Shown: positions 5,238 through 25,242 of the stretch, one piece after another
Layout of the letters: the number at the start of each line of letters is the position of its first letter
Numbering within the stretch: position 1 is the first letter of the stretch
From: a virus
Length of the DNA: 25,242 nt
Strand: one strand, 5' to 3'
Virus record (IMG/VR): IMGVR_UViG_3300025438_001457
Coordinates: 1-25,242 of that record
Translations under genes and position numbers: made by a program
The notes under the pieces: model-generated
Seen by the model: only the letters and a program-made list of their open reading frames with translations
Database searches by the model: none
What the model was told of the DNA's origin: nothing

Positions 5238-5245
5238 TATTTATC
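5238..5245 (-). promoter_or_regulatory. Late-promoter-like box (GATAAATA) for the dehydratase
   Basis: One base off TATAAATA; the TGA stop of the sulfotransferase gene overlaps its first bases. It lies 44 bases before ATG 5194. Less certain than the exact boxes. Confidence 0.5.
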
Positions 5246-6077
5246 AATTATTCGTAACGTCTGGATAAAATGACTTATAAAACCACTGATTCTCATTTAC
5301 AACTTGGTTGTGAAAATTATCAGAAAGTACTCTTGTCGGTTCTTTCCAAGGTATCATTTGCGGTTTAGTTTTGTGATCTGTTTTTTCCCGGAAGTATGCG
5401 TTATCATGCTCAAACATCGATGCCTGCGGTATATTATCCAAGTCATGTTGATAGTTTTGTAAACCGAGGAATTCGTATATTCGTTTTAACATGTAGTTTG
5501 GATCACGAAGAAGATCCTCGTAGCGAATAAATTTAACTCTTGAAGGATCTCGTTTAAACAGTTCAATATACTTTGGTATTTCGTGGCGAAGAGTTACAGA
5601 AAAAGAATTAGTTTCCTTGAAGTGATAAGCGTATTTTTCGTCTTCGGTCAACGAGCCGTATAGTGTATTGTCATTACCAAACGTGTGTAGAGCTTTAATC
5701 TTGCTATTAACACGATCAAAACTTTCTACGATATCTCTAAGATCGCGAACTGTAATTAACATTTTTGATTTTGGGAATAAGTGGTGTAGACCTGACCAAT
5801 CTCGTGCCTTTGAAATTACAACTGGTTTTTGAGTAAGACCTTCGTACCAACCGCGAGTTGCACCAAGAGCCATACCATAAACAGCATCGTCGGCTTGCTC
5901 ACAACTCATTGCTTGAAACGCTTCTGAGTATCTTGACTTAATTAAAATTTGTTCATTAAGTATATGTGGAAATGGGTCTGTAGAAGTAGTAAACACTTCT
6001 GGGTTTTGCTGTAACACATTCATTAGGACGGTCGACCCAGTTCTAGGTAAACCACCGCAAAAATTCAATTGTTTCAT
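5244..6077 (-). CDS. PAPS-dependent sulfotransferase (277 aa)
   Basis: Transfers a sulfo group from PAPS to a hydroxyl or amino group. The 5'-phosphosulfate loop is GLPRTGSTV (9-17), close to the N-terminus as in the family. The 3'-phosphate site is ITVRDLRDIVESF (108-120), with Arg111 and Ser119 in the expected places. RYEDLLRDP (185-193) is the typical helix before the C-terminal part. Length is normal, with no signal peptide or membrane segment, so it would act in the cytoplasm. Start ATG 6077 with GAAAG upstream; late promoter at 6105-6112. Its partner genes for PAPS synthesis are absent, so it would rely on host sulfate assimilation. Substrate unknown: a host or phage glycan, or a fibre protein, is plausible from the neighbouring sugar gene. 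Confidence 0.88.
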   Translation of the reverse strand: MKQLNFCGGLPRTGSTVLMNVLQQNPEVFTTSTDPFPHILNEQILIKSRYSEAFQAMSCEQADDAVYGMALGATRGWYEGLTQKPVVISKARDWSGLHHLFPKSKMLITVRDLRDIVESFDRVNSKIKALHTFGNDNTLYGSLTEDEKYAYHFKETNSFSVTLRHEIPKYIELFKRDPSRVKFIRYEDLLRDPNYMLKRIYEFLGLQNYQHDLDNIPQASMFEHDNAYFREKTDHKTKPQMIPWKEPTRVLSDNFHNQVVNENQWFYKSFYPDVTNN

Positions 6078-6104: not shown

Positions 6105-6112
6105 TATTTATA
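6105..6112 (-). promoter_or_regulatory. T4-type late promoter (TATAAATA) inside a kelch gene remnant end
   Basis: GTATAAATAG on the minus strand, 28 bases before the sulfotransferase ATG. The Val codon and TAA stop of the remnant (6108-6221) are part of the promoter sequence. Confidence 0.78.
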
Positions 6113-6221
6113 CTTGTTGGGCCGCGATATCGAATCTAGTTTGTGTTAGATCACCAACGTTAGTACAACTGGCAGCGGCTGCAAAAGGAAACTTGTAAAT
6201 ATTAGCAGCTGCTCGCCGCAT
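6108..6221 (-). pseudogene. Remnant of a seventh kelch-like repeat, cut off from gene 6252-7247
   Basis: Translated in the frame of the upstream propeller gene, this stretch reads NIYKFPFAAA, then TNVGDLTQTRF, then IAAQQV and stop. That is the second half of the kelch-like repeat with the usual C-terminal QQV of the family. It is separated from the gene by two consecutive TAA codons (6254-6249) and about ten further in-frame codons without repeat character. A 37-codon ORF could start at ATG 6221, but no ribosome site is evident and the repeat half alone could not fold as a blade. Best read as the decayed original end of the neighbouring gene, kept perhaps because it holds the sulfotransferase promoter. 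Confidence 0.75.
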
Positions 6222-6251: not shown

Positions 6252-7247
6252 TTATACAGAGCTTTGATTTCCATGGACCCAGCGTCTTGATGCTGTTGTT
6301 AGATCCCCAACATCTGTTGCGTTAGCGTCAGAAGCAAAAGGAAACTTATCAATTGTGTTTGTGGCCGCAGGCCCTGCAAACCCGCCAGACCTATAACCGG
6401 AAGCCGTACTCGACTGACCAGCGGCCGTAGTCACAACAGATGTCAAATTACCAACATCTGTTGCATTTGCATCAGAAGCAAAAGGAAACTTATCAATAAC
6501 ATTAGAAGTTGCTGGATAATAGGTGCCAGTACTATGCCCGCCTGAAGTATAGCCAGATATTAAACTTGATTGGCCGGCTACGCTGGATCTAGCTTGAGAA
6601 AGATTAGCGACATCAGTTGCATTTCCATCAGTTGCAAATGAAAATTTGTATATAGTATTTTGTGTCGAACCGCCTGTGTTACCACCTGATACATAACCAT
6701 TTTCCAAGCTTGATTGGTCAGTGCACCACGCCCGGATCGCTGGAAGATCACCAACGTCCGTTGCATTAGCATCCGTAGCGAATGCAAACTTGTCTATCGT
6801 ATTAACAATCGGTGCTGATTGCCCTCCGGCTGTATAGCCTGATACGTCGCTTTCATGGCCTGAGCCATTTCCTCTTGCTTGCGTTAAATCACCAACATCG
6901 GTTGCATTTCCGTCAGCAGCAAAGGGATACTTGTCAATAACGTTAGAGGTGGCAGTAGGCCCGCCGCCCACACTATAACCACTTACCAAACTTGATGCTC
7001 CAGTTTGGCTGCCGAACGCAGAAGTACGTGTCAAATTACCAACATCAGTCGCGTTGGCGTCAGATGCAAAAGGAAACTTATCGATTACATTAGAATTTGG
7101 CTGCCCACCATGTGTGTATCCGGATACACTACCGTATGCAGTTGGAGTTGGCGGCACGTTAAACTCATTCGCGGTAGCTTTACCGTCAAAGTATATGCCG
7201 TCATCGTATTCAGTAAACGAAAAAAGTTCTGTTATAACGGTTGCCAT
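6252..7247 (-). CDS. Six-repeat kelch-like propeller virion protein, copy 6 (331 aa)
   Basis: N-terminal head of about 40 residues (SFTEYDDGIYFDGKATANEF), then six repeats of the form GY-x-SGG, variable loop, N-x-I-D-K-F-P-F-A, DANATDVG-(D/N)-LT, spacer. Six such units suggest a closed six-bladed beta-propeller, a fold inferred from repeat number and length. Variable loops include QPNSN, GPTATS, QSAPIV and HSTGTYYPAT. The last repeat ends GNQSSV instead of the usual AGQQV: the chain stops where a further blade would begin, and a broken seventh repeat follows in frame (6108-6221). Start ATG 7247 has AAGGA upstream and its own late promoter at 7275. Probably a tail or fibre-associated adhesin; the protein family is widespread in marine T4-type phages without assigned function. 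Confidence 0.85.
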   Translation of the reverse strand: MATVITELFSFTEYDDGIYFDGKATANEFNVPPTPTAYGSVSGYTHGGQPNSNVIDKFPFASDANATDVGNLTRTSAFGSQTGASSLVSGYSVGGGPTATSNVIDKYPFAADGNATDVGDLTQARGNGSGHESDVSGYTAGGQSAPIVNTIDKFAFATDANATDVGDLPAIRAWCTDQSSLENGYVSGGNTGGSTQNTIYKFSFATDGNATDVANLSQARSSVAGQSSLISGYTSGGHSTGTYYPATSNVIDKFPFASDANATDVGNLTSVVTTAAGQSSTASGYRSGGFAGPAATNTIDKFPFASDANATDVGDLTTASRRWVHGNQSSV

Positions 7248-7274
7248 TCATTTAATCCTTGGAGTTGTTTAGTC

Positions 7275-7282
7275 TATTTATA
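7275..7282 (-). promoter_or_regulatory. T4-type late promoter (TATAAATA) overlapping the stop of kelch copy 5
   Basis: GTATAAATAG: the GTA codon and TAA stop of the upstream gene form the box. It is 28 bases before ATG 7247. The following leader up to AAGGA is nearly the same as at 15071-15106. Confidence 0.8.
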
Positions 7283-8288
7283 CCTGTTGACCGGCCGCGG
7301 CGTAAACAGCATTAGTTAAATTACCAACATCTGTTGCATTAGCATCAGCAGCAAAAGGAAACTTTTCAATCGTGTTAATAGCTGCCCCAGGTGGCTGATA
7401 TCCCCCAGAAGTATAACCAGAAGCTGTGCTTGACGTGCCTGTTACTCTGCGCGAAAATAACGTTGTTAAATCACCAACATCAGTCGCATTTCCATCAGAT
7501 GCAAAAGGAAATTTATCAATTGTGTTAACACTTACAACCCCAGGACCAATATTACCCCCAGAAGTATAACCTGAAGTTGCACTATTCTGTCCTGCAGCTT
7601 GCTTACGACTTTGCGTTAGATCCCCAACATCACTCACGTTTGCATCTGTAGAAAATGGAAACTTTTCAATAATATCAGTGTTTACTGAAGGGTCAGAAGG
7701 TAAACCGCCTGAAATATAGCCTGACACAACACTTGAGTGACCAGCTGGTGACGACCTACCTTGCGTTAAATCGCCAACATCTGTTGCGTTTGTGTCAGCT
7801 GCAAAAGGAAACTTGTCGATTACTAAGGAAGACGGTGGAAATACAAAACCACCTGATGTATACCCAGATACAGTACTTGACTGACCCGACGCACTGTTCC
7901 TTACCTGTGTTAGATCACCAACATCTGTTGCATTTCCGTCAGCTGCAAAAGGAAACTTGTCGATTTTATTAACACGAGTAGGGGACCCCGGTGTAGTACC
8001 ACCAGAAGTATAACCGTTTTCTGTACTTGATTGCCCAGCAACAAATGCTCTGTTATCAGGTCCGGACAAAAACCCAGATTGAGTTGCGTCAGCATCAGAT
8101 GCAAAAGAAAACTTGTTAATTCTGTTAGTATGTGGCGGATTTATACCACCAGACGAATAACCACTTACAGTACCCTGCGCATGGCTATCCGCAAATCCTA
8201 AATAGTCATTAACTACAATTTTAGTTTTATTTGCTGTGATAGACGCGTTATCACTTATAACCTCAACATCTTTTACAAACCATGCCAT
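7278..8288 (-). CDS. Six-repeat kelch-like propeller virion protein, copy 5 (336 aa)
   Basis: Head of about 40 residues with TKIVVNDYLGFAD, closely like the head of the gene at 16047-17048 (TKFVVNDYLEFAD). Six repeats follow, with variable loops after SGG such as INPPHT, TTPGSPTRV, FVFPPSS, LPSDPSVNTD, NIGPGVVSV and YQPPGAA. The first repeat is degenerate: it reads FASDADATQSGFLSG in place of DANATDVGDLT. It ends AGQQV. The start overlaps the stop of the upstream copy by one base (TAATG), so translation is coupled and it shares the upstream promoter. Fold and role are inferred as for its sisters: a six-bladed propeller with exposed variable loops, probably on the virion surface. Confidence 0.85.
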   Translation of the reverse strand: MAWFVKDVEVISDNASITANKTKIVVNDYLGFADSHAQGTVSGYSSGGINPPHTNRINKFSFASDADATQSGFLSGPDNRAFVAGQSSTENGYTSGGTTPGSPTRVNKIDKFPFAADGNATDVGDLTQVRNSASGQSSTVSGYTSGGFVFPPSSLVIDKFPFAADTNATDVGDLTQGRSSPAGHSSVVSGYISGGLPSDPSVNTDIIEKFPFSTDANVSDVGDLTQSRKQAAGQNSATSGYTSGGNIGPGVVSVNTIDKFPFASDGNATDVGDLTTLFSRRVTGTSSTASGYTSGGYQPPGAAINTIEKFPFAADANATDVGNLTNAVYAAAGQQV

Positions 8289-9280
8289 TATGCTTGTTGA
8301 CCTGCTTGGCGAAGTCTTCCTACTGTTAAATCACCAACATCAGTTGCATTAGCATCAGAAGCAAAGGGAAACTTTTGAATTGTATTAGAAACCGGGCCAC
8401 CAGACACATAGCCAGACGCTGTGCTAGATTGTCCTTCGTAATATGAACCTACTTGCAACAGGTCGCCGACATCAGTAGCATTTCCATCAGATGCAAAAGG
8501 AAATTTATCGATTACATTGGTTGTGCCCGGGGATTGGCCGCCGGAAGCATAACCAGATTCTGTGCTACTTTGGCCCGCGCCGTCAAACCTTCCTACTGTT
8601 AAATCGCCAACATCAGTTGCATTACCATCAGTAGCAAAAGAAAACTTGTTAATAACATTTGAAGCAGGAGTGTTCCCGCCTGACACATAACCAGAAACTA
8701 GGCTTGATTGCCCCGTAACCAACGTGACGGTATTTGTTAAATCACCAACATCTGTTGTATTACCATCAGTAGCAAAAGGAAACTTGTGAATTTCAGCAAC
8801 GGTCGGTTGGCCCGCGATTTGAGGGGCGGTGGCGCCGGAAGTATAACCATTCGTGCCGCTTGATTGACCAGCTCCTTGCCATCCTGTGGCCGCTATACCA
8901 ACATCAGTTGCATTACCATCAGATGCAAAAGAAAATTTCATGATAGTGCCTATGTTATAGGCAGGGGCATTTGTTCTTCCCCCAACAACATACCCGGCCG
9001 TAGAGCTAGATACTCCAACTCCGTTGCTATAGGGTAATGTCAAATCACCAACGTCAGTTGCATTTCCGTCAGATGCAAAAGGAAACTTGTCAATTACAGT
9101 GGAGTACGCCGGTTCTTCACCGCCTGAAGTATAGCCACTTACAGTACCTCCAAATTGCCAACGCTCTTCATATTCTGTAGCCAATATGTTGCCGTCAAAC
9201 TCAAAACCTTCATCAGTAAAGGTTAACGTATAGTCACCAAAATTTATGGTACCGTCTTGGTTAAATTTAATTTGGGACAT
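8288..9280 (-). CDS. Six-repeat kelch-like propeller virion protein, copy 4 (330 aa)
   Basis: Head of about 45 residues (INFGDYTLTFTDEGFEFDGN), of the same class as the gene at 14079-15071. Six repeats, with loops EEPAYS, RTNAPAYNIG, TAPQIAGQPTVA, NTPAS, QSPGTT and PVS. The third repeat has SGA instead of SGG, and the second reads VGIAATG in place of VGDLT, so blades drift individually. It ends AGQQA instead of AGQQV, so no late promoter is created at its stop, in line with the coupled next gene. Transcribed probably from 9813 with the 111-aa and 42-aa genes. Adhesin or fibre-tip role is inferred. Confidence 0.85.
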   Translation of the reverse strand: MSQIKFNQDGTINFGDYTLTFTDEGFEFDGNILATEYEERWQFGGTVSGYTSGGEEPAYSTVIDKFPFASDGNATDVGDLTLPYSNGVGVSSSTAGYVVGGRTNAPAYNIGTIMKFSFASDGNATDVGIAATGWQGAGQSSGTNGYTSGATAPQIAGQPTVAEIHKFPFATDGNTTDVGDLTNTVTLVTGQSSLVSGYVSGGNTPASNVINKFSFATDGNATDVGDLTVGRFDGAGQSSTESGYASGGQSPGTTNVIDKFPFASDGNATDVGDLLQVGSYYEGQSSTASGYVSGGPVSNTIQKFPFASDANATDVGDLTVGRLRQAGQQA

Positions 9281-9296
9281 GTACTACTTCTTTCTA

Positions 9297-9425
9297 TTAA
9301 ACGTCTTCAACGAGCTCTTTTAAAATTTCAAACGCATCATTATCTTCCATTTGAAATTTTCTTAATACTTCAATTAATTCATTTTCATCAAGTTCTTCAA
9401 TCTTTTTTGCTAACATAATTTCCAT
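9297..9425 (-). CDS. Small acidic protein (42 aa), unknown function
   Basis: Minus-strand ATG 9425 to TAA 9297-9299, opening MEIMLAKKIEELDENELIEV and ending LKELVEDV. It is acidic, predicted almost fully helical, without cysteine or membrane segment. A good ribosome site, GGAAG, lies ten bases before the start, inside the end of the preceding gene (six-base gap). It sits between the 111-aa gene and the propeller gene at 8288-9280, which starts 16 bases later. The placement, start signal and absence of any other coding on either strand support a real gene. Function unknown; a chaperone-like or regulatory helper for the propeller is only a guess. Confidence 0.65.
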   Translation of the reverse strand: MEIMLAKKIEELDENELIEVLRKFQMEDNDAFEILKELVEDV

Positions 9426-9431
9426 ATTGTA

Positions 9432-9767
9432 TTAACTTCCGTTTTTAGTTACAAAATCGTCGTACCAAGCTTCAGTCATTGTTGTTACTTCGGCATCAGT
9501 CATATCTGTTGGATCTGCACCAGGATCAGATTCATCCATATTCTGAAACGGAGTTACTCCATGCATTGCGAGGTTGCGAGTAACCAATTCTGCTTTTGTA
9601 AAGGACGTAACCGAGTCGGGAACGTAATAATCGCGAGTATCATCTACCCAGCCGATATATGTATTGTCTGCGCTATTAAACCAGTGGCCGCGATCGCCGA
9701 CCCAACCTGGTATTTCAGCGCGATTACCACCATTAATTCTATGAAGCATATATTCTATTACAGCCAT
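9432..9767 (-). CDS. Conserved-type small phage protein (111 aa), function unknown
   Basis: Opens MAVIEYMLHRINGG; contains GWVGDRGHWFN (residues about 22-32), then YIGWVDDTRDYYVP (37-50), then TKAELVTRNLAMHGV. The pattern is that of a hypothetical protein often seen near fibre genes of marine T4-type phages, recognised from memory and without assigned function. The C-terminal 40 residues are acidic and Met/Asp-rich. The start ATG 9767 has a strong GGAGGAAA site. The late promoter at 9813 lies 46 bases upstream. It leads a unit with the 42-aa gene and propeller copies 4 and 5. A role in propeller assembly is position-based inference. Confidence 0.75.
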   Translation of the reverse strand: MAVIEYMLHRINGGNRAEIPGWVGDRGHWFNSADNTYIGWVDDTRDYYVPDSVTSFTKAELVTRNLAMHGVTPFQNMDESDPGADPTDMTDAEVTTMTEAWYDDFVTKNGS

Positions 9768-9812
9768 TTTATTTCCTCCGGGTGTTATAGTTTAAATAAA
9801 GGTTTCTCAGTG

Positions 9813-9820
9813 TATTTATA
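9813..9820 (-). promoter_or_regulatory. T4-type late promoter (TATAAATA) for the 111-aa gene unit
   Basis: Minus-strand TATAAATA one base past the TAA stop of the methyltransferase gene (9822-9824) and 46 bases before ATG 9767. Confidence 0.72.
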
Positions 9821-9821
9821 A

Positions 9822-10592
9822 TTACAATGATCTTATATTCTTCCTTGGGTAAGGAAAAATATCTATTGGTGTTAAAGTAATACAACATGTGCTATTTTGA
9901 TTGCGTTCTTTATTTTCTACCATGTGGTCTACTTTAAATTCTGTATTTTCAATTTTATATTTTAGTTTTTCTATATCGTATTCTTTTTGTAGGCCTTTAC
10001 TGTTTTCTAATGCATCATAAAATATTTTTGGCATTTTTCCATTATTTAATACATCAATTATACGATTAATTGCCATGTAAGATGGATAATGAGTACTTGC
10101 GCTATCGATATATATTTTAGCATGGTCATTCATTTTTGGAATATAATCAACTAATAACTTTGTTACATCAAAAACACCATGCGCAAAATCAGAAAAAAGT
10201 ATATCAATATTATTTAAATCTAAAACATCAATTTTTTGATTTAAAAACTTAATACTATCCTTAAGTTGAAAGTCTTCAATTAAACCTAAAATAAAATCGT
10301 CATATTCTTCTTTATAGTAATTACCCATCGCATCTTTTGCAGTTTTAAGACGGTGCCATTCGCTACCGTCATCAATAGTATGTATAGTACCATAATCGTT
10401 TTCTTGAAGAGCTAACCCAGCCCAAAGCATTGCTGAACCAAGACCAGTTCCAAGTTCAACAACAGTTTTTGGTTTCATCATTTTAATCATAGAATAAAGG
10501 TACACTGAAAAGTCTTCTGTTCCGTATATAGAACCAACTCCGTCAGTGTACCTTTTTAACTCTACGAATTTTTCATAGAAATCAGTCTTCAT
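9822..10592 (-). CDS. Class I SAM-dependent methyltransferase-like protein (256 aa)
   Basis: SAM-binding motif I is VVELGTGLGSA (about 44-54), followed by a second-strand acid in IHTIDDG. Motif-IV-like stretches are DILFSDFAHG and IYIDSAS. This arrangement is closest to the Methyltransf_24 type of small-molecule and sugar methyltransferases. Start chosen at ATG 10592 (MKTDFYEKF), not the more upstream ATG at 10625, because the longer form would overlap the previous gene by 44 bases and adds an unlike basic tail. The chosen start overlaps it by 11. Residues after about 200 are lysine-rich and probably a small C-terminal helix bundle. Last gene of the oxygenase unit starting at 14001. Substrate unknown. 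Confidence 0.78.
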   Translation of the reverse strand: MKTDFYEKFVELKRYTDGVGSIYGTEDFSVYLYSMIKMMKPKTVVELGTGLGSAMLWAGLALQENDYGTIHTIDDGSEWHRLKTAKDAMGNYYKEEYDDFILGLIEDFQLKDSIKFLNQKIDVLDLNNIDILFSDFAHGVFDVTKLLVDYIPKMNDHAKIYIDSASTHYPSYMAINRIIDVLNNGKMPKIFYDALENSKGLQKEYDIEKLKYKIENTEFKVDHMVENKERNQNSTCCITLTPIDIFPYPRKNIRSL

Positions 10593-11529
10593 CTGTCTCT
10601 TCTGTAAGGTCAGCAAGAGATGCAACTTTGTTTGAAAAGGAAATTGCTTCGTTTGGTTCTGGGTCGTATCCTAGAAGTTCCATTCGAGTAATGTCAACCT
10701 TATGCTTATTAATCAATTCATTTGCTAAACCATCAACAAACTCAAATAATCCTTCGCTACCCCAAGAGTTTTGTTCAACTTCTTTCTTTACATATTCTTG
10801 AATGATACGTTGCATTTTACTCGGGTTTACACCAATCTGTTCCATATACTCTTGTTCACCCTTTGTAATTTTACCAGATTGGCGAACGTCACGAATACAT
10901 TGAACAATACTTCTTTTAAGATGTGTAATTGATTCTTCTTTTTCAATATCATGCTCAGAGAAACCACTTACCTTTTCTTTAAGATCTTCGTAGATTTCTT
11001 GAAGGGCAAGAACATCTTTCATCGCACCTTCGATATATGTCATACCGTCAACAGCACCTTCTTGAAGCTGAGCAAGTTTAATCTTAAGATCAACTTCTCT
11101 CCAATAATCGAGATCTACAGCATTTTGCAGTTCTTCTTGAAGTTTACGAATTTTTGCTTCATTTTTAATATGACGCCACTTTGCCTCGGTAAGAGCAGAA
11201 TTCTTTTTTGATAACTCAGCAGAAATTTGGCGCATATTCTTATGTGGACTGTGGTAACTAAAGTTAATATGTTTCCACATCCATTGCGAGTGACTGTGGT
11301 TCCAAATATTACCTAATTCGCCAACATTCTTTAGAGCAGCGTCAACGAGCTGAGAATTTTCGTTGAGCGTCTTGTTCCCAAAACTAGGGAGATTACCTGT
11401 AGTACCGTGGCCAAAAACCATAGCCATCGGAACCTTTAACTTTTCGGCATTTTCAGTCGTTACGATATTGCTTTTACGTATTTCTTCAAATACAGTAAGT
11501 TCACGTACGTTTTTCTTTTCTTCTTCCAT
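10582..11529 (-). CDS. Coiled-coil protein of unknown function (315 aa)
   Basis: No named domain recognised. From residue about 95 to 250 it is strongly helical and charged, with heptad-like runs (KWRHIKNEAKIRKLQEELQ; EIYEDLKEKVSGFSEHDIEK), as in a coiled-coil. The N-terminal third contains MAMVFGHGTTGNLPSFGNK and HSHSQWMWKHINFSYHSP, histidine-rich and possibly metal binding. The end is acidic (EETDED). Start chosen at ATG 11529, one base after the upstream stop, because AAGGAGA sits ten bases before it; an ATG at 11553 inside the previous gene lacks such a site. It lies between the double oxygenase and the methyltransferase in one late unit. Could be a scaffold for these enzymes or a virion protein; neither is shown. 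Confidence 0.75.
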   Translation of the reverse strand: MEEEKKNVRELTVFEEIRKSNIVTTENAEKLKVPMAMVFGHGTTGNLPSFGNKTLNENSQLVDAALKNVGELGNIWNHSHSQWMWKHINFSYHSPHKNMRQISAELSKKNSALTEAKWRHIKNEAKIRKLQEELQNAVDLDYWREVDLKIKLAQLQEGAVDGMTYIEGAMKDVLALQEIYEDLKEKVSGFSEHDIEKEESITHLKRSIVQCIRDVRQSGKITKGEQEYMEQIGVNPSKMQRIIQEYVKKEVEQNSWGSEGLFEFVDGLANELINKHKVDITRMELLGYDPEPNEAISFSNKVASLADLTEETDED

Positions 11530-11530
11530 G

Positions 11531-12865
11531 TTATTTAAATCTCCTTGGTCCATGTATCCAAATTACGAGTGCATAGCGATCTCCGGTTTCAATTGGAGTA
11601 ACTACATGTGGCATATAGCTCGGGAATAGGGAAATAGATCCTCTTTCACGAACTGCTTGTATTTTATTTCCGTGGTCATCAACAACTAAATCACAACCTG
11701 TATAGCTGTCTGGGTTGGATAATTGAGCCGTGAATGATATTTTTCTTGTTGCTACTGTGCCGTTTCCAGCATCAACGTGCCAATCATAGTGTCCTGGAAC
11801 TTCTGAATCGGATGGATAATGAATTAACTGTAGTGAATGTTCAATATGTGATATGTCATAGTCAAAGTGTATTGCGTTTACAGCAGTTATAGACTTTGCT
11901 ACTTTATCAAAAATCCATTTATTCTCTTTATCATTTTCAACTGAGTATATTTCAGCTGATCTTATTTTACGAGAAACTGTGCCTTTACTATCGCCACCTA
12001 CGCTCGCAGATGCTGCGTACGAATCGTTTGCGATCTGAATAATACGATCACATTCTTCATCTGTAAACTTTAACTGCGGTAATGTTTTATTATTGATTGG
12101 AAAATACCCAGGCAAAGTATTATCCCGGCCAGGTAAAATTATCCCGCCAAACACCGGATCCGGAATAAGCATATCTTTTTTCTTTTCAAGAATTTCTTGA
12201 ATAGGTACCTGATTATGTTGATGAACGATCGTAGTCGTCTGTTCTTGCTGGGCGGGTTGTTGAACTTCATTTGTGTTTGTCATAGTAGCTGCTGTTTTAT
12301 CAACTCCCAATTCTGTTCTTCCATCCATAGCTTGATCTGCGTGTGGACCATCTGCATCAACAAAATGCAAGAATACTTGACAATGCCAATTACCTTTAAA
12401 CGGCTTTCTCCAGTGTACCATTTCAGTACCTTTGTAGGCTGCCATTTCTCCTGGTTCCATTGTTACTGCTTTTTCTACAGTACCATCGTCGTTTGAAAAA
12501 TAGATTGGCCAGTTTGCCTTTGCATCATAACCTAATGTTAATGTTGTACTAATCTCACACGCTGGGCGATCCTTATGTTTTTTGAGTACGTCTCCCGGGC
12601 GATAAATGCGAGCATAGGAGTATGTAGGAAGTAGTCTTTTTCCGACTGCCTTTCCAAGAGGTTCTGCGACGTTCTGAAGCAGCGCGTCAAATTTAAGATC
12701 GCCATACACTGCATCTGATAGTGGGCACTGGTCGTCCTTCACTAACTTACCAGCGTCATGCAGATCAAACATGTGCTTTACTAAACCATCAGATTGTTCT
12801 TTTGATAAAACATCCTGTAGTACTACGTATCCATTTTCTTCAAAATAATTTACTGTGTCGGTCAT
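11531..12865 (-). CDS. Fusion of two 2OG-Fe(II) oxygenase domains (444 aa)
   Basis: Two iron/2-oxoglutarate dioxygenase domains in one chain. Domain 1 (about 1-172) has the iron-binding His97-Lys-Asp99 and a distal His151 in MVHWRKP, followed by a final strand CQVFLHFVD. Residues about 173-235 are a Gln/Thr-rich linker. Domain 2 (about 255-444) is of the prolyl-4-hydroxylase/PKHD type: His363-Val-Asp365, distal His420 in MPHVVTP, and Arg430 for 2-oxoglutarate in GDRYALVIW. Both iron triads appear complete, so two active sites are expected. A six-base gap separates it from the upstream oxygenase, with GGAG before ATG 12865. Substrates are unknown: side-chain hydroxylation of a virion protein, or a sugar or small molecule. 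The tandem fusion is the notable feature. Confidence 0.88.
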   Translation of the reverse strand: MTDTVNYFEENGYVVLQDVLSKEQSDGLVKHMFDLHDAGKLVKDDQCPLSDAVYGDLKFDALLQNVAEPLGKAVGKRLLPTYSYARIYRPGDVLKKHKDRPACEISTTLTLGYDAKANWPIYFSNDDGTVEKAVTMEPGEMAAYKGTEMVHWRKPFKGNWHCQVFLHFVDADGPHADQAMDGRTELGVDKTAATMTNTNEVQQPAQQEQTTTIVHQHNQVPIQEILEKKKDMLIPDPVFGGIILPGRDNTLPGYFPINNKTLPQLKFTDEECDRIIQIANDSYAASASVGGDSKGTVSRKIRSAEIYSVENDKENKWIFDKVAKSITAVNAIHFDYDISHIEHSLQLIHYPSDSEVPGHYDWHVDAGNGTVATRKISFTAQLSNPDSYTGCDLVVDDHGNKIQAVRERGSISLFPSYMPHVVTPIETGDRYALVIWIHGPRRFK

Positions 12866-12871
12866 AATATA

Positions 12872-13444
12872 TTATTCTCCATTCGTATATTGAAATTTGC
12901 AAGTCACAACGTATCTTTTATCCTGAGCCGAAGCAAATGGTGGTGAACCACAGTGCGGAATACCTCCATCAAAAACAACCAATCTACCAGGAACGTAAGC
13001 GGCAGCATATTCGATGTTATCAAGAGTTTCATTGAAAAAGAAGGTATGTCCTCCCCAATGAATATTCCAATCCGGATGCGGATAATAGAGAGCAGTCTTT
13101 GGCTTTCCTAAGTGATTATCGTCGATGTGTATCGTATCAAAATCACTTGTGGTAGCAAGGTTTACATATTGACGGTGTACTATGTAATTATCGCCCAAGT
13201 TTGGATCTACTCTATTGAGTTTATTTATAATACCAAAATTAATTGATTGCTCACGCGACTCAAAAACATATTTTAATTTGTGCTTTTCACCATATATATG
13301 CGAACGCAACCCGTCACTAAAATTTGTAGCTGAGTAAGGAAATTGGCGAACAGCAATAAACATTCGCGACATTTCTTCAAAAGTAAAAAGATCATCGTAT
13401 ACGTCAACTTTTCGGCCGTTAATATTAATTTCTTTATGTTTCAT
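12872..13444 (-). CDS. 2OG-Fe(II) oxygenase (190 aa)
   Basis: Single-domain iron/2-oxoglutarate oxygenase. Iron ligands: His106 and Asp108 in IHIDDN, and distal His164 in GGIPHCGSPP. Arg177 in KRYVVTCKF is the expected 2-oxoglutarate anchor. The core strand YVPGRLVVFDGG (about 150-161) is typical of this superfamily in phages. ATG 13444 overlaps the upstream oxygenase stop by four bases (ATGA), indicating coupled translation. Together with the neighbours on both sides it makes four oxygenase domains in three consecutive genes. The substrate cannot be read from the sequence. Confidence 0.87.
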   Translation of the reverse strand: MKHKEININGRKVDVYDDLFTFEEMSRMFIAVRQFPYSATNFSDGLRSHIYGEKHKLKYVFESREQSINFGIINKLNRVDPNLGDNYIVHRQYVNLATTSDFDTIHIDDNHLGKPKTALYYPHPDWNIHWGGHTFFFNETLDNIEYAAAYVPGRLVVFDGGIPHCGSPPFASAQDKRYVVTCKFQYTNGE

Positions 13445-14001
13445 GATATACCTATATTAAAGCTAATGCTTACTCTATTTTCTTCTGATGTGTTTGGTTC
13501 TACGTAATGTTCTAACCAACCCGGGAAAACAATACATGCAAGATGTTGAGGATCTATTGGATAATTTTTAGAGCGAATAGTGTGAGTATCGCTACGGATA
13601 TTTGGATTTACAAATATTAATCTGCCACTGCTTTTTGGCACTTGTAAATAAAAAACTCCAGATAGACAACCTTCATGAGTATGTTGATAATTAAAAGAAT
13701 GTTTACCATTTACATTCGCCCACATACTTTGTACTACAGGATTTTCTATCCCGTAGTCTTTTAGAATTGTTTGTCCAATTGATTTAATAAGAGTATTATT
13801 TACAAACTCTTTAAAAAGCGGTTCTTCGTGAAGATTATCCCGAGACTGCCATCCGCCTCCTGCATTGCTTTTATTTGCAGAAGGTTCAGCAGAATGCAAT
13901 TCAAGTATTTTTTCAAGATAATCTTCAGCCTGATATTTTTCACTGCTTAAAACATAACCCCAAATAGGAGTTGGAAATATATTTACTTCGTGGTCGTTCA
14001 T
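13441..14001 (-). CDS. TIGR02466-type putative 2OG-Fe(II) oxygenase (186 aa)
   Basis: Matches the family pattern throughout: an opening FPTPIWG (9-15), GGGWQSRDNLH (48-58), YQHTHEGCLSGVFYL (105-119), IVFPGWLEHYVEPN (157-170) and ENRVSISFN (174-182). Probable iron ligands are in His107-Thr-His109 and His165, with Arg176 for the co-substrate; the first ligand pair is unusual for 2OG enzymes but normal for this family. First gene of the unit, with GGAG before ATG 14001 and a late promoter 31 bases upstream. This family is frequent in marine phages and has no proven substrate. Confidence 0.87.
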   Translation of the reverse strand: MNDHEVNIFPTPIWGYVLSSEKYQAEDYLEKILELHSAEPSANKSNAGGGWQSRDNLHEEPLFKEFVNNTLIKSIGQTILKDYGIENPVVQSMWANVNGKHSFNYQHTHEGCLSGVFYLQVPKSSGRLIFVNPNIRSDTHTIRSKNYPIDPQHLACIVFPGWLEHYVEPNTSEENRVSISFNIGIS

Positions 14002-14031
14002 AATTTACTCCATAATATAACATTGTATTGT

Positions 14032-14039
14032 TATTTATA
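14032..14039 (-). promoter_or_regulatory. T4-type late promoter (TATAAATA) for the oxygenase unit
   Basis: Minus-strand TATAAATA 31 bases before ATG 14001. The bases in front read, in one frame, KLVAAFV-stop, faintly like the AAGQQV-stop end of the propeller genes, so this may be another eroded gene end. Confidence 0.75.
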
Positions 14040-14078
14040 CAAACGCGGCCACTAATTTAAATGCTGTATTTTACATTT

Positions 14079-15071
14079 TTAGTATTGATGGCCCGCTACC
14101 TTGTTTGACGCCAATGTTAAATCACCAACATCAGTTGCATTACCATCAGCAGCAAATGGAAACTTGTCAATTGTGTTTTGCCGGCCGGCTGGCGAAAAAC
14201 CGGCCATAGCATAACCGCTATCTTGACTTGATGAACCGCTAGTCTGTGACCGCCCTTGTGTCAAATTACCAACATCAGTCGCATTTCCGTCAGATGCAAA
14301 AGGAAACTTATCGATTATATTAGAATTTGGCTGCCCGCCAGATGTGTAGCCGTGTGAGTCAGACTGTTGACCAGCTGGCTGTGACCGCCCTTGTGTCAAA
14401 TTTCCAACATCCGTTGCATTGGCATCAGATGCAAACGGAAACTTATCGATTACATTAGAATTTGGACTGTCTGGCCGATGCCCGCTTGATGTATAACCCG
14501 ACACTGTACTCGATTGACCTGTAGAGTACCGTCCGGTTGTTGTCAAATCGCCAACGTCTGTTGCATCACCGTCAGCTGCAAAGGAAAATTTATCGATTAC
14601 ATTTGTGCTGGTTGGAAATCCACCGCCTGAAGTATAACCATAATCCGCGCCACTTTGACCAGCTGCGTATTGCCTAGTAGTTACAGTCAATGCGCCAATA
14701 TTAGTACCAGCCGGAGTGCCAGAAGCAAAGGGAAATTTTTCAATTCCAAAAGCAGCGGGCGGTGTTCTTCCTCCACTACTATAGCCATTTACTGTACTTG
14801 ATGTACCGGCATAACCTTCACGGCCTGTTGACAAATTACCAACATTTGTTGCATTACTATCAGTAGCAAAAGGAAACTTTTGTATCCTAGTTTGGAGAGC
14901 GGGCCCACCGCCACCCGACGCATAGCCACTCGTAGAACCTTGAGCTCCTGGTGGGATTGGTACCGCGTAAGATCCGTACTTAAACTTCCCGTCGATCTCA
15001 ATACCATCGGCATGAACTGAGATACTATAGGTCCCAAAGTTTATTGAGTCTTTATTAATTGAAATCGGCAT
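14079..15071 (-). CDS. Six-repeat kelch-like propeller virion protein, copy 3 (330 aa)
   Basis: Head of about 45 residues (INFGTYSISVHADGIEIDGK), same class as the copy at 8288-9280. Six repeats with loops GGPALQTR, RTPPAAF, GFPTST, HRPDSPNS, QPNSN and FSPAGRQ. Repeat 2 has an insertion (FASGTPAGTNIGALTV), and repeat 6 starts GYAMAG instead of GYTSGG. Loop QPNSN and its flanks are shared with repeat 1 of the copy at 6252-7247, about 7 kb away. It ends VAGHQY, not AGQQV, and the next promoter lies about 40 bases further. ATG 15071 is preceded by AAGGA and a late promoter at 15099. Propeller fold and adhesin role inferred. Confidence 0.85.
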   Translation of the reverse strand: MPISINKDSINFGTYSISVHADGIEIDGKFKYGSYAVPIPPGAQGSTSGYASGGGGPALQTRIQKFPFATDSNATNVGNLSTGREGYAGTSSTVNGYSSGGRTPPAAFGIEKFPFASGTPAGTNIGALTVTTRQYAAGQSGADYGYTSGGGFPTSTNVIDKFSFAADGDATDVGDLTTTGRYSTGQSSTVSGYTSSGHRPDSPNSNVIDKFPFASDANATDVGNLTQGRSQPAGQQSDSHGYTSGGQPNSNIIDKFPFASDGNATDVGNLTQGRSQTSGSSSQDSGYAMAGFSPAGRQNTIDKFPFAADGNATDVGDLTLASNKVAGHQY

Positions 15072-15098
15072 TTACAAAATCCTTAGAGTTCTTTAGTC

Positions 15099-15106
15099 TA
15101 TTTATA
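15099..15106 (-). promoter_or_regulatory. T4-type late promoter (TATAAATA) overlapping the stop of kelch copy 2
   Basis: GTATAAATAG formed by the last Val codon and TAA stop of the upstream propeller gene; 28 bases before ATG 15071. Confidence 0.8.
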
Positions 15107-16010
15107 CTTGTTGGCCTGCAGATTTGTACCTGCCTTGTGTTAAATCACCAACATCAGTCGCATTTCCATCATATGCAAAAGGAAACTTATCAATTGTTCC
15201 GACTACCGGGGGAGTTCCGCCTGATGCATAACCGGATGCATCGCTTGATTGGCCTGCAGCCCCGGTTCTACCTTGTGTTAAATCACCAACATCAGTCGTA
15301 TTGCCGTCAGCAGCAAAAGGAAACTTTTCAATTGTTGCGACTACCGCGGGAGATCCGCCTGATGCATAACCAGATACATCGCTTGATTGGCCTGCAGGCC
15401 CGGCTGTCGCTACTGTTAAATCACCAACATCAGTCGCATTGCCGTCAGCCGCAAAGGGGAACTTATCAATTATCATGCTCCAATTGCCGGGGTCCATTCC
15501 GCCTGAAGTATACCCAGATACAGTACTTGACTGACCTGCCGCCACATATCTTGCTTGTGTTAGATCACCAACATCTGTTGCATTTCCGTCAGATGCAAAA
15601 GGAAACTTGTCAATAACAGTAGAAGTTGGAAAATGGCCACCAGACGAATAACCCGACACTGTACTCGATTGACCCGCAACGGTCTGTCTTGCTACTGTCA
15701 AATCGCCAACGTCTGTTGCATTACCATCAGCTGCAAAAGGAAACTTGTCAATAACAGTAGAATAGGGAGGTGCAGTCCCACCAGAAGTATATCCGGATAC
15801 TACGCTTGATTGCCCTCCACATATTTGTCCTCTTAATACTGTCAAATCGCCAACGTCTGTTGCATTGGCATCAGATGCAAAAGGAAATTTATCAATTACA
15901 TTTGTGGACGCGGTTCCGCCTGAAGTATAACCGCTTACCGAGCCTTGTGCATGTGACGGGTTTGATACATGTACACTTGCTATCTTATCTTGAGTAATTT
16001 TTATTGCCAT
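15102..16010 (-). CDS. Six-repeat kelch-like propeller virion protein, copy 2 (302 aa)
   Basis: The shortest copy: the head is only about 20 residues (MAIKITQDKIASVHVSNPSH) before AQGSVSGY. Six regular repeats, with loops TAST, TAPPYS, HFPTS, MDPGNWSMI, SPAVVA and TPPVVG. All repeats keep the DxNxTDVGDLT turn, making it the most regular member. The last two repeats are very alike, which suggests recent duplication. Its repeat 3/4 region (15502-15653) is nearly identical to a stretch in the upstream copy. It ends SAGQQV, with the stop forming the next gene's promoter. A weak late-type box (16024-16032) lies upstream. Function as for the family: probably a variable surface-binding virion protein. 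Confidence 0.85.
   Translation of the reverse strand: MAIKITQDKIASVHVSNPSHAQGSVSGYTSGGTASTNVIDKFPFASDANATDVGDLTVLRGQICGGQSSVVSGYTSGGTAPPYSTVIDKFPFAADGNATDVGDLTVARQTVAGQSSTVSGYSSGGHFPTSTVIDKFPFASDGNATDVGDLTQARYVAAGQSSTVSGYTSGGMDPGNWSMIIDKFPFAADGNATDVGDLTVATAGPAGQSSDVSGYASGGSPAVVATIEKFPFAADGNTTDVGDLTQGRTGAAGQSSDASGYASGGTPPVVGTIDKFPFAYDGNATDVGDLTQGRYKSAGQQV
15502..15653. repeat. 152-bp near-identical tract shared with 16759-16910
   Basis: Aligned by eye without gaps to 16759-16910, with about seven mismatches clustered in two variable spots. It covers the end of one blade, the conserved turn and the next loop (HFPTS here, MFPAS there). Best explained by gene conversion or recent duplication. 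Confidence 0.8.
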
Positions 16011-16023
16011 TTTTCTATCCTAA

Positions 16024-16032
16024 TATTTTATA
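16024..16032 (-). promoter_or_regulatory. Weak late-promoter-like box (TATAAAATA)
   Basis: One extra A relative to TATAAATA, 14 bases before ATG 16010, closer than the other boxes. Could be chance in an AT-rich gap. Confidence 0.3.
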
Positions 16033-16046
16033 CTCGTTTGTTGACA

Positions 16047-17048
16047 TTATACTTGTTGACCTGCTAAACTATAACGACCCGCTGTTAAATTTCCTACATC
16101 AGTTGCATTACCGTCAGCCGCAAAGGGGAACTTGTCGATAATATTAGATTGGGCAGGGACTTTGCCACCAGAAGAATAACCAGACGCGGTGCTCGATTGA
16201 CCAGCTGCCTGGCGTTTTACCGTCGTTAAATCACCAACATCAGTAGCGTTAGCGTCAGATGCAAAAGGAAACTTGTCGATAATATTTGTGAACGCGCCGC
16301 CATCGCCACCAGAAGTATATCCGGATACTGTGCTCGATTGACCAGCTGCATACCTTGTTACTCTTGTCAAATCACCAACATCAGTTGCATTACCGTCAGC
16401 CGCAAAGGGGAATTTATCAATTATATTTCCAGACCCCAATGTGCTATACCCAGCTGAAGAATATCCGGATACTGCGCTTGATTGGCCAGCCGGGGAATAT
16501 CTACCTTGTGTTAAATCACCAACATCAGTTGCATTACCGTCAGCCGCAAAGGGGAACTTGTCGATAACATTTGTAAGCGTCATGGCGCCGGTTGGATTGG
16601 TTCGCCCGCCTGAAGTATAACCAGACGCGTCGCTTGATTGACCAGCCATATAATAACGAACCTGTGTCAAATCACCAACGTCAGTTGCATTTCCGTCAGA
16701 AGCAAATGCAAACTTATCAATTGTATTCTGCAATGCCTGTGCCGGCCACGTGTTTCCACCTGAAGTATACCCAGATACAGTACTTGACTGACCTGCCACA
16801 GCATATCTTGCTTGTGTTAGATCACCAACATCTGTTGCATTTCCGTCAGATGCAAAAGGAAACTTGTCAATAACAGTAGAAGCTGGAAACATGCCACCAG
16901 ACGAATAACCACTTACCGAGCCTTGTTCAGGCGTCGTTGGATGATCGGCAAATTCTAAATAGTCATTTACAACAAACTTTGTTTTGTCACCCGGGTTAAT
17001 ATTACCGGATGCATCTACAACTACGGTACCTTTTACTTTATATGTCAT
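16047..17048 (-). CDS. Six-repeat kelch-like propeller virion protein, copy 1 (333 aa)
   Basis: Head of about 42 residues with TKFVVNDYLEFAD, matching the head of the copy at 7278-8288, then QGSVSGY and six repeats. Loops: MFPAS, NTWPAQALQ, RTNPTGAMTL, YSTLGSG, DGGAFT and KVPAQS. Repeat 4 has SAG for SGG. It ends AGQQV; the stop here is followed by TGT, so no promoter is formed. It begins five bases after the gp14-like gene and has no promoter of its own, so it is co-transcribed with the neck genes. That links the propeller family to the virion. Fold inferred from six equal repeats. Confidence 0.86.
   Translation of the reverse strand: MTYKVKGTVVVDASGNINPGDKTKFVVNDYLEFADHPTTPEQGSVSGYSSGGMFPASTVIDKFPFASDGNATDVGDLTQARYAVAGQSSTVSGYTSGGNTWPAQALQNTIDKFAFASDGNATDVGDLTQVRYYMAGQSSDASGYTSGGRTNPTGAMTLTNVIDKFPFAADGNATDVGDLTQGRYSPAGQSSAVSGYSSAGYSTLGSGNIIDKFPFAADGNATDVGDLTRVTRYAAGQSSTVSGYTSGGDGGAFTNIIDKFPFASDANATDVGDLTTVKRQAAGQSSTASGYSSGGKVPAQSNIIDKFPFAADGNATDVGNLTAGRYSLAGQQV
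16759..16910. repeat. 152-bp near-identical tract shared with 15502-15653
   Basis: Partner of the tract in the next gene; here it covers the spacer and loop between repeats 1 and 2. Same length, about seven mismatches by eye. Confidence 0.8.
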
Positions 17049-17053
17049 ATATC

Positions 17054-17734
17054 TTATCCAGCATCTGTTGGGTTTGTGATAGTTTCGCTAAACGGATCTA
17101 TCTCTGTGAAATCTATTATATCATCACCAGCATCTTCAAAGTCTATATTATTTGCAATAGGATCTTTTGTTTTTAATGCAGTGAGCGAAGTAACAGCAGT
17201 TGTTTTATAATTATCAAAAAATGTATCTATATCCGATACACCAGTTTGGAATCTTTCATTGGAATATTCAAACAATTCGCACTGAAGGTCGAACACTTGT
17301 AAAGCACCACTCTGATAGAAGACGCTCTCATGTTCAACGTGAGTAATTTTAAAGAACTTGTTAACCATTGGAAAGTATACTAGTTCTCCTTCCTTTGGTC
17401 TTAAAATAGTAGGGATTATGTTAGTTACATTTTTCTCAAATGTTCGCATTGCAACAGTAAATGTAACTTGGTCACGAATTTGTAAACCAAACCTACTAAG
17501 GAAGTCGCCTTCACCTTGAAATCCATCAACACTCTTAACATACATTTCCATTTCATATGAAGTATTAAAGATCGAAAGATCATCTTCATTTAATATATTG
17601 TCTACAGCCTGCAAACTACGAGTAAGATAATACGTGTCTATCCCATAAATCTGAATAGACTCGATCACCAGGTCATCAATGAGAGTCTGTTCGTTTGAAT
17701 AATCATAATTATTAAAATATGCGTTAGTAGCCAT
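17054..17734 (-). CDS. gp14: T4 gp14-like neck protein (226 aa)
   Basis: Head completion/neck protein that, with gp13, closes the filled capsid and forms the tail attachment site. Opening MATNAYFNNYDYSNEQTLI with DDLVIESIQIYGIDTYYL is the signature of gp14 in marine T4-type phages. The central VDGFQGEGDFLSRFGLQI and the beta-rich stretch EGELVYFPMVNKFFKITHVE are conserved parts of the family. Length is close to that of marine homologues and shorter than T4 gp14. The C-terminal 40 residues are acidic and low in complexity. Three bases behind gp13, no own promoter. In T4 the next gene would be gp15; here a propeller gene follows. Recognition is from sequence memory, not a search. Confidence 0.88.
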   Translation of the reverse strand: MATNAYFNNYDYSNEQTLIDDLVIESIQIYGIDTYYLTRSLQAVDNILNEDDLSIFNTSYEMEMYVKSVDGFQGEGDFLSRFGLQIRDQVTFTVAMRTFEKNVTNIIPTILRPKEGELVYFPMVNKFFKITHVEHESVFYQSGALQVFDLQCELFEYSNERFQTGVSDIDTFFDNYKTTAVTSLTALKTKDPIANNIDFEDAGDDIIDFTEIDPFSETITNPTDAG

Positions 17735-17737
17735 GTA

Positions 17738-18481
17738 TTAACCCACAAAATTATAGGTAAGCGGTTGCAGGGAATTAATAGCGTTTTCTTCCATCTCTTT
17801 TCGATCTGTCTTAGCTTCGCTTAATATTTGCTCACCGTTAAACTGTACACCACCTACAAGTTGCATGTTTGTAAACTTCGTTAAATTAAATCCCCATTGT
17901 TCTCTTACTAGAGCTGAAGTGTAATTTTGAAGAAAGCGATCTTGCCAAACATCAGCATATGTTTCACCACTTATGATATCATATCCTTCAATGATAATAT
18001 GCGATCCTGCGACCATTATATTTTTCTTACCATCAATATAAAGGCGATTTACATGGCGGTTATATCGTACTAAAGGTTTTCCTACTAAAATTTCCTGAAG
18101 AAATTGCAGATGAGACATTGACATATAATAGTTCTGTATACTATATCCTGTAATATCACTGAGGTTATTTAAAACGAATTGGTATTGCACATTAAAAATG
18201 CCAGTACCCGTTGACACAGATGAGCTCAAGTCAAATATTCGAGTAACACCGAGCATATTTTCCGGTACTGTGACATAACCTTGATCTATTTCAGCTTGGG
18301 TGAGCTCGTGCTTAAGATAAACCATTTGACTTCCATCATAATGATAATCTCTCCAAAAAGATATAGCTTCGTCAATACGGTCTTCAATTTGTTCTTCGGA
18401 AACATTTATTTGAATGACCGGAGCACCTATTTTACGAAGTACGTAATCTTTAAACTCTTCGCGTGTTGTTGGTAATGCCAT
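17738..18481 (-). CDS. gp13: T4 gp13-like neck protein (247 aa)
   Basis: Neck protein partner of gp14. The N-terminus FKDYVLRKIGAPVIQINVSE followed by EDRIDEAISFWRDYHYDGS is the clear signature of gp13 in marine T4-type phages. Later landmarks are YVTVPENMLGVTRIFDLSS and REQWGFNLTKFTNMQLVGGV, which hold the conserved Gln-Trp-Gly-x-Asn. Length is typical of marine relatives. The ATG 18481 has the late promoter 18505-18512 only 24 bases upstream. It heads the unit gp13, gp14, propeller copy 1. This is the best anchor for calling the window T4-type. Recognised from memory of the family. Confidence 0.9.
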   Translation of the reverse strand: MALPTTREEFKDYVLRKIGAPVIQINVSEEQIEDRIDEAISFWRDYHYDGSQMVYLKHELTQAEIDQGYVTVPENMLGVTRIFDLSSSVSTGTGIFNVQYQFVLNNLSDITGYSIQNYYMSMSHLQFLQEILVGKPLVRYNRHVNRLYIDGKKNIMVAGSHIIIEGYDIISGETYADVWQDRFLQNYTSALVREQWGFNLTKFTNMQLVGGVQFNGEQILSEAKTDRKEMEENAINSLQPLTYNFVG

Positions 18482-24689: not shown

Positions 24690-25242
24690 TTACTTATTTT
24701 TAACTTCTTCCTTTAGTTTATTTATCGCGTCGATCATGATTGCAATTAAAGGAATATATGAAACAGTTCTTTGACCATTGCCATTTTTCTTTACAAGCTC
24801 AGGCATGATTTTTTCTAATTCTTGCGCCATAACACCATAACTCAATTCTTTTGTATCTTTCCAATTAAACTTATATGTATCAATTTTATCAAGTATTGAA
24901 AAGCTATCATTAATTGGTAAAATATTTTCTTTAACTGTTGCATCTGAAAGTGAATTAAAGCCTGTTGCTGACAAGTCGCCAGTAGAAGGATTAAAATACA
25001 GTTTTGTTGTTGACGACGTAATTGTTTGAACAGATCCAGTTGCTCCAACAAAAACCGGATAAAAATCTTGATTTGTTGATGTATCATTTAGTGATTGCAA
25101 TTCATATGCAGAAGCAGCTTCTGCAGCTCCACCTTGAATACCTTGTCCACCAGTAATACCTTGGATACCTTGCGAACCAACGCCAGTAATACCTTGGATA
25201 CCTTGACGACCCTGAATACCTTGAATACCTTGTCCACCAGTA
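24690..25242 (-). CDS. Collagen-like fibre, C-terminal part with S74 chaperone domain (from right edge)
   Basis: The frame is open at the right edge with Gly-X-Y residues ([12 protein letters not shown]) until about 25131, then an Ala-rich joint (GGAAEAASAYELQ), a short beta region (FVGATGSVQTITSS; KLYFNPSTGDLSATGF) and the S74 domain: SLSDATVKENI, YKFNWKDTKELSYGVMAQEL, then SYIPLIAIMIDAINKLKEE. S74 domains help fibres trimerise and then cut themselves off with a Ser-Lys pair; here Ser and Lys are five residues apart in SDATVK as in known members, so self-cleavage is expected. If the window ends are joined this is the same protein as the left gene, and the frame fits exactly. If not, there are two collagen fibre genes. 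Confidence 0.88.
   Translation of the reverse strand, partial: TGGQGIQGIQGRQGIQGITGVGSQGIQGITGGQGIQGGAAEAASAYELQSLNDTSTNQDFYPVFVGATGSVQTITSSTTKLYFNPSTGDLSATGFNSLSDATVKENILPINDSFSILDKIDTYKFNWKDTKELSYGVMAQELEKIMPELVKKNGNGQRTVSYIPLIAIMIDAINKLKEEVKNK
25195..25242. repeat. 48-bp end repeat, identical to bases 1-48
   Basis: Exact match to the first 48 bases of the window, and again to 82-129. The match with the internal copy extends to 62 bases (25181-25242 equals 68-129), so the longest identity is internal. Confidence 0.9.

Follow-up and report, generated by a model that had tools for sequence, protein, structure and literature searches.

Genes for predicted six-bladed propellers with loop-restricted variation in a marine-type T4-like phage

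Propellers that act, or are presumed to act, as receptor-binding heads are found in several phages, with five blades in phi11 RBP, seven in PhiKZ gp131C and a distorted five in PRD1 P2 (PMC4901313). Kelch-fold propellers are also encoded by contractile-tailed jumbo phages (CBB_550/552/554, PhiPA3, Noxifer and Phabio), and one of these proteins, CBB_552, was detected in the virion by mass spectrometry (PMC5259590). Here we analyse six paralogous propeller genes in a 25,242-nucleotide stretch of viral DNA (IMG/VR record IMGVR_UViG_3300025438_001457, hereafter the window), which comes from a bacterial virus of T4-like, marine type. Neither the propeller fold nor the use of propellers in receptor-binding proteins of phages is new; what is new is an array of multiple paralogues in which one face varies and the blade count is locked. 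The window propellers differ in blade number and family from those of phi11, PhiKZ and PRD1, for which we know of no multi-gene array. They resemble the jumbo-phage proteins in their predicted Kelch fold and contractile-tailed origin, although sequence homology between the two was not demonstrated. In the open-licence literature, we found neither a jumbo-phage counterpart of an array of up to 11 variable copies nor a description of the propeller family itself.

Anatomy and predicted fold of the window propellers

The six open reading frames (ORFs) at 6252-17048, all on the minus strand, each divide into exactly six GY-x-SGG units, 36 in total (Table 1). An earlier note on this DNA, made from its letters alone, had described six genes with six repeats each, and its coordinates, counts and constant frame with variable spacers are borne out. 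The unit length that it gave, 45-52 residues, applies to internal units only, whereas the last unit of each protein measures 41-48 residues because it ends at the ring-closing strand. The best family match of all six proteins is phrog_19111, listed in PHROGs as of unknown function, and none of the libraries searched assigns a function to the family. Weak Pfam matches (DNase_NucA_NucB, THDPS_M, DUF4907 and HCBP-related) were rejected as chance, as they rest on a short repeated motif of which almost no stretch passes alone.

AlphaFold2, run on propeller A with 76 relatives, returned a model with a mean predicted local distance difference test (pLDDT) of 93.0 and a predicted template modelling score of 0.86, in which four strands recur in each unit. 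The best Foldseek matches of this model in the PDB were KLHL12, SAKe6 designs and KEAP1 (E about 1e-19 to 1e-17), and VIA-align superposed it on Keap1 and the designed SAKe6 with a Z of about 41 and a root-mean-square deviation of 1.6-1.9 Å over about 280 residues. The same fold search returned proteins of PhiPA3, Noxifer and Phabio that are named virion structural. Propeller A is predicted to be a closed six-bladed Kelch-fold propeller with six four-stranded blades, in agreement with the propeller claimed for these genes in the earlier note. Each unit runs from strand B (GYTSGG) through a variable B-C loop to strand C (NVIDKFPF), and from there through a constant C-D turn, strand D (TDVGDLT) and a variable D-A loop to strand A (AGQSS). 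In the model, the last strand (residues 329-332, AGQQV) aligns through Keap1 residue 609 and the first blade strand starts from residue 46, while in most homologues one or two residues follow the last unit. This last strand completes blade 1, and the Keap1 ring is closed by a C-terminal strand in the same way (PMC4668279).

Like the Kelch domains of Keap1, KLHL12 and KLHL3 and like SAKe6, the window propellers have six four-stranded blades, a double glycine that ends strand B (columns 5-6 of the unit profile, G 95% and G 96%), a C-terminal strand A that closes the ring and B-C and D-A loops that are long and share one face. However, identity to these proteins is only 13-19%, and the Kelch packing residues are absent from the unit profile, which has Phe (columns 19 and 21, 95% and 98%) in place of the strand C Tyr and Val/Leu in place of the strand D Trp. 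Unlike Keap1, KLHL12 and KLHL3, the window propellers are phage genes without a BTB domain, and unlike in all four comparators, the blades of a given protein are, loops aside, nearly interchangeable. No window propeller reached the Pfam Kelch cut-off (best Kelch_6, 12.9 bits against 25.3 required), and a sequence search of solved structures gave nothing useful. The propellers are of Kelch fold, but are not members of the Kelch family by sequence.

Two further ideas about the array were rejected. A specialised blade is not apparent, as blade position carries little identity: same-numbered blades across proteins and loci are 57.7% identical and different-numbered blades 56.9%, with only the last blades slightly more alike. 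Nor is a recent burst of duplication within this genome supported, as each window propeller matches another contig better than its siblings.

Constant blade number and loop-restricted variation among relatives

Relatives were collected from 85 loci (designated L and a number), comprising IMG/VR viral contigs and six stretches of metagenome-assembled bacterial genomes, with up to 11 propeller copies at one locus. When units were counted with a profile in 200 non-redundant complete homologous ORFs, 196 had six, a count far from chance, although their N-terminal parts ranged from 26 to 716 residues. Two of the four exceptions (L028 and L084) were judged by eye to be sixes with degenerate or spurious units. 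In a third (L023:3250-4440) the profile sees four units, yet the protein is predicted to fold as a six-bladed Kelch propeller (pLDDT 78.5), and the last, a five-unit ORF near the start of contig L093, appears truncated or frameshifted. Judging from these sequences, the repeats do collapse, leaving one-unit debris, yet no other blade number persists in complete genes. This fits the prediction of selection for ring closure, to which the earlier note had attributed the constant six; repeat number does not vary freely among the homologues.

Debris of this kind lies directly behind propeller F, where a single-unit remnant (6221-6108), overlooked in the earlier note, is probably what is left of a lost blade or a collapsed copy. 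Comparable to it is a mini-gene at L042 12029-12280 with an intact anchor and one propeller unit, probably a copy that collapsed via recombination between repeats.

Propeller repeats related to those of the window also occur in a divergent cultured phage, Synechococcus phage S-SKS1. In contrast to the window, its units are only about 28-34% identical to ours and two propellers are fused via a GGASERIKGSR linker. Two of its three loci read six units, linker and six units, split by frameshifts, while in the third, which spans the joined ends of the record, the count of 6+7 is uncertain. All three loci are frameshifted (L074 1-1226; L075 5817-7666, 8504-10352, 11249-11962), through either sequencing error or real inactivation or phase change.

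An entropy profile of 1158 units from 193 proteins contains two hypervariable stretches per unit, at columns 7-13 (from SGG to N-x-I) and 38-40 (past LT-x-x-R), each at about 3-4 bits. Mean entropy was 3.09 bits in the B-C and D-A columns, compared with 0.85 in the strands and 1.13 in the C-D turn. The B-C loop ranges in length from 0 to 19 residues, and the C-D segment is constant in length in 1139 of the 1158 units. As an antiparallel four-stranded blade puts the B-C and D-A loops on one side and the A-B and C-D connections on the other, the variation falls on one face; this placement comes from blade topology, not from measured coordinates. In Keap1, the face that bears the B-C and D-A loops is the one that binds ligand, and it does so by means of these two loops (PMC4668279).

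The same pattern was found in ten close pairs of propellers that are 80-99% identical. Nine of these pairs link different contigs, and one consists of neighbours inside L031. Residue differences amounted to 0.154 in B-C and 0.113 in D-A loops against 0.023 in strands, so that loops change five to seven times faster, and the ratio of non-synonymous to synonymous differences per site (pN/pS) was 0.99 for loops, compared with 0.16 for the frame. The loops are thus strongly released from constraint, which fits diversification without proving positive selection. Of what had been claimed about the loops beforehand, the single hypervariable loop per repeat gives way to two, whereas the sharing of one face follows from the blade topology, and the greater diversity of loops over frame holds both among families and for phages that are almost identical. 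As regards targeting of the propellers by a diversity-generating retroelement, the Pfam scan of the window genes revealed no reverse transcriptase; the window is part of a genome, and template repeats were not searched.

Head exchange, tail anchors and gene neighbourhood

Propellers vary faster than the virion genes that flank them. In L008 and L049, gp13 and gp14 are 95% and 97% identical to those of the window, but propeller A, in the same position, only 62%. In L003, propeller A is 100% and its neighbours are 99-100% identical, and a different propeller B head sits on the same anchor. L052 shares an oxygenase block that is 99-100% identical, yet the head of its propeller C has been replaced (blades 43-70% identical) on an anchor that is 82% conserved. 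Its propeller D is 94% identical, with changes only in blades 1-3 and slightly in the anchor, and 11 of these 19 differences fall in B-C or D-A loops. Cases of anchors shared with non-propeller ORFs are few. The clearest is an L027 propeller anchor that is shared with L053, a hint that one anchor can receive heads from different propeller families. The ORF in question (L053 13660-16107) encodes a different, WD40-like repeat protein headed by the L027-like anchor. Related propellers, whose anchors (ISGGVQLSG) form a separate class, are found on contigs binned as the Gammaproteobacteria genome Nau_16 (L090-L092 and L095), which are probably phage contigs.

Some relatives carry recognised tail anchors. 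The N-terminus of an L031 propeller matches Mtd_N (E=2.9e-14) and tail-fibre PHROGs, and the N-terminal regions of others are of tail-spike (L022), tail-fibre (L021) or fibre type (L050). The arrays are placed between S74/collagen-like fibres and the gp13-gp14-gp15, sheath-stabiliser, terminase and sheath genes of T4-like phages, and in the window the gp14-like gene ends a few bases ahead of the start of propeller A. From the relatives' tail anchors and this gene position, we infer that the propellers of this phage are located on the virion.

Genes for possible modifying enzymes lie nearby. Relatives of the 2OG-Fe(II) oxygenases that separate the two propeller triplets occur, at least one per locus, in 28 of the 43 loci that bear propellers and measure at least 12 kb (non-redundant propellers), and these enzymes possibly hydroxylate fibre or propeller proteins. 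The sulfotransferase gene that adjoins propeller F likewise adjoins propeller genes in S-SKS1.

The window ends (1-1100 and 25242-24690, minus strand) are halves of one collagen-like (GxQGIQG) S74 tail fibre gene. Their junction is read in L002, and L002 and L005 bridge them. As the ends join in one fibre gene, the 25-kb contig closes on itself, which is impossible for a complete T4-like genome so small; the contig is circularly permuted and probably holds one false join. The large contigs to which L008 and L076 belong have a gp15-like gene and the terminase after propeller A, in place of further propellers. Given this order and the self-closing contig, the assembly may contain a false join close to propeller B, although the adjacency of propellers A and B finds support in L003 and L004. 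Such a join leaves the conclusions on individual proteins unaffected.

Table 1. Propeller genes of the window and their neighbours
Feature	Coordinates	Strand	Remarks
Propeller A	16047..17048	-	46-residue N-terminal anchor (16911-17048) and six blades
Propeller B	15102..16010	-	26-residue anchor (15933-16010) and six blades; six units by profile
Propeller C	14079..15071	-	48-residue anchor (14928-15071) and six blades
Propeller D	8288..9280	-	48-residue anchor (9137-9280) and six blades
Propeller E	7278..8288	-	42-residue anchor (8163-8288) and six blades
Propeller F	6252..7247	-	42-residue anchor (7122-7247) and six blades; terminus ...GNQSSV replaces the usual AGQQV
Single-unit propeller remnant MRRAAANIYKFPFAAAASCTNVGDLTQTRFDIAAQQV	6108..6221	-	37 codons and stop; directly behind propeller F
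Neck protein, T4 gp13-like (head-tail adaptor)	17738..18481	-	phrog_211 E=7.4e-37
Neck protein, T4 gp14-like	17054..17734	-	Pfam T4_neck-protein E=4.5e-39; phrog_460 E=8.9e-67
Collagen-like tail fibre, C-terminal part (intramolecular chaperone, S74)	24690..25100	-	Peptidase_S74 E=1.2e-14; N-terminal part at 1-1100
Tail fibre protein	1907..3529	-	phrog_17885 E=5.8e-19
Three 2OG-Fe(II) oxygenase-like genes, between propeller triplets	11531..14001	-	Pfam 2OG-FeII_Oxy_5 and _3
Sulfotransferase, adjoins propeller F	5244..6077	-	Sulfotransfer_3 E=6.3e-17

Proposed function and its alternatives

The propellers probably serve as receptor-binding heads that can be exchanged and that are borne by tail fibres, whiskers or the baseplate. 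The short N-terminal anchor would dock the propeller on one of these structures, with the propeller as the end piece that makes contact with the host surface, probably with a glycan or a protein there. The last strand (AGQQV) would pair with the first (SGY) to close the ring, so that a ring of five or seven blades would stay open and be selected against. The six B-C and six D-A loops would crowd one face of the ring as the binding surface that contacts the host, with the opposite face and the strands held constant, and this constant frame would guarantee folding. Diversification could proceed by substitutions and indels in the loops, by replacement of the head while the anchor is conserved and through the joint presence of different propellers in one phage, and the several paralogues of one phage may confer several specificities or higher avidity.

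Several points weigh against this proposal. The short anchors of the window propellers match no named family, and only some relatives bear recognised tail anchors. The loop columns were delimited partly with knowledge of the data, and the close pairs form a small and partly non-independent sample. A loop pN/pS close to 1 is compatible with a mixture of diversifying selection and constraint, but also with simple relaxation. Finally, while gene anatomy, blade constancy, loop-restricted variation, head swapping and the tail-fibre anchors of some relatives are established here, and the fold is a prediction, that the heads bind a receptor, and which one, is what we infer.

Relaxation is central to one alternative, in which the propellers decorate the virion or make it generally sticky, and their loops vary unconstrained, by drift and repeat recombination, with no particular receptor. 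Immunoglobulin-fold decoration proteins of phages are a known precedent, the loop pN/pS is about 1 rather than clearly higher, and the many copies per phage would fit redundancy. However, constraint is lifted on one face only, as the C-D turn keeps its length and a low entropy, and entire heads are exchanged while anchors and neighbours stay almost identical. Moreover, some relatives occupy the site where tail-fibre or tail-spike anchors normally bear receptor-binding or depolymerase domains. We consider this alternative unlikely. A depolymerase, sialidase-like or galactose-oxidase-like tail enzyme is quite improbable. Galactose oxidase is indeed a Kelch-fold enzyme. Propellers are also present in phage endosialidase tailspikes (PMC4901313), but the would-be active face is the hypervariable one. 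Glycines, hydrophobic strand residues and turns make up the near-invariant positions and recur in every blade, no single catalytic set stands out, and the nearest solved structures are binding domains rather than enzymes.

The Kelch propellers of other viruses are mostly intracellular adaptors, and poxvirus Kelch proteins are among the structural-search matches, so that the window propellers might bind host proteins during host takeover, as poxvirus or cellular Kelch proteins do. The chance of this is slim, as they have no BTB or other partner domain, lie in a late structural module by fibre, neck and sheath genes and have relatives with tail anchors. Tandem repeats of about 45 residues are also found in fibre shafts, and the repeats could in principle form a solenoid or trimeric shaft in which six is a coincidence of recent duplication. 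This can hardly be correct, as it is contradicted by the high-confidence prediction of a closed propeller and by the six repeats in essentially all 200 diverse homologues, despite their very different N-terminal parts.

If the propellers are receptor-binding heads, it is conceivable, although doubtful, that they amount to a natural antibody-like repertoire, in which up to about ten heads on different anchors, each with a 12-loop face on an invariant six-blade scaffold, occur together in one phage and are exchanged between phages, and in which neighbouring 2OG oxygenases, the sulfotransferase and glycosyltransferases may chemically modify fibres or heads. The receptor-binding proposal offers a testable function for phrog_19111, an uncharacterised family that recurs in many environmental T4-like phages, and describes a natural scaffold in which ring closure fixes the blade number and one face is free to vary. 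If it is true, host recognition in uncultured aquatic phages would become readable from the loops, whose natural variants would show which loop changes are tolerated by a Kelch-type binding face.

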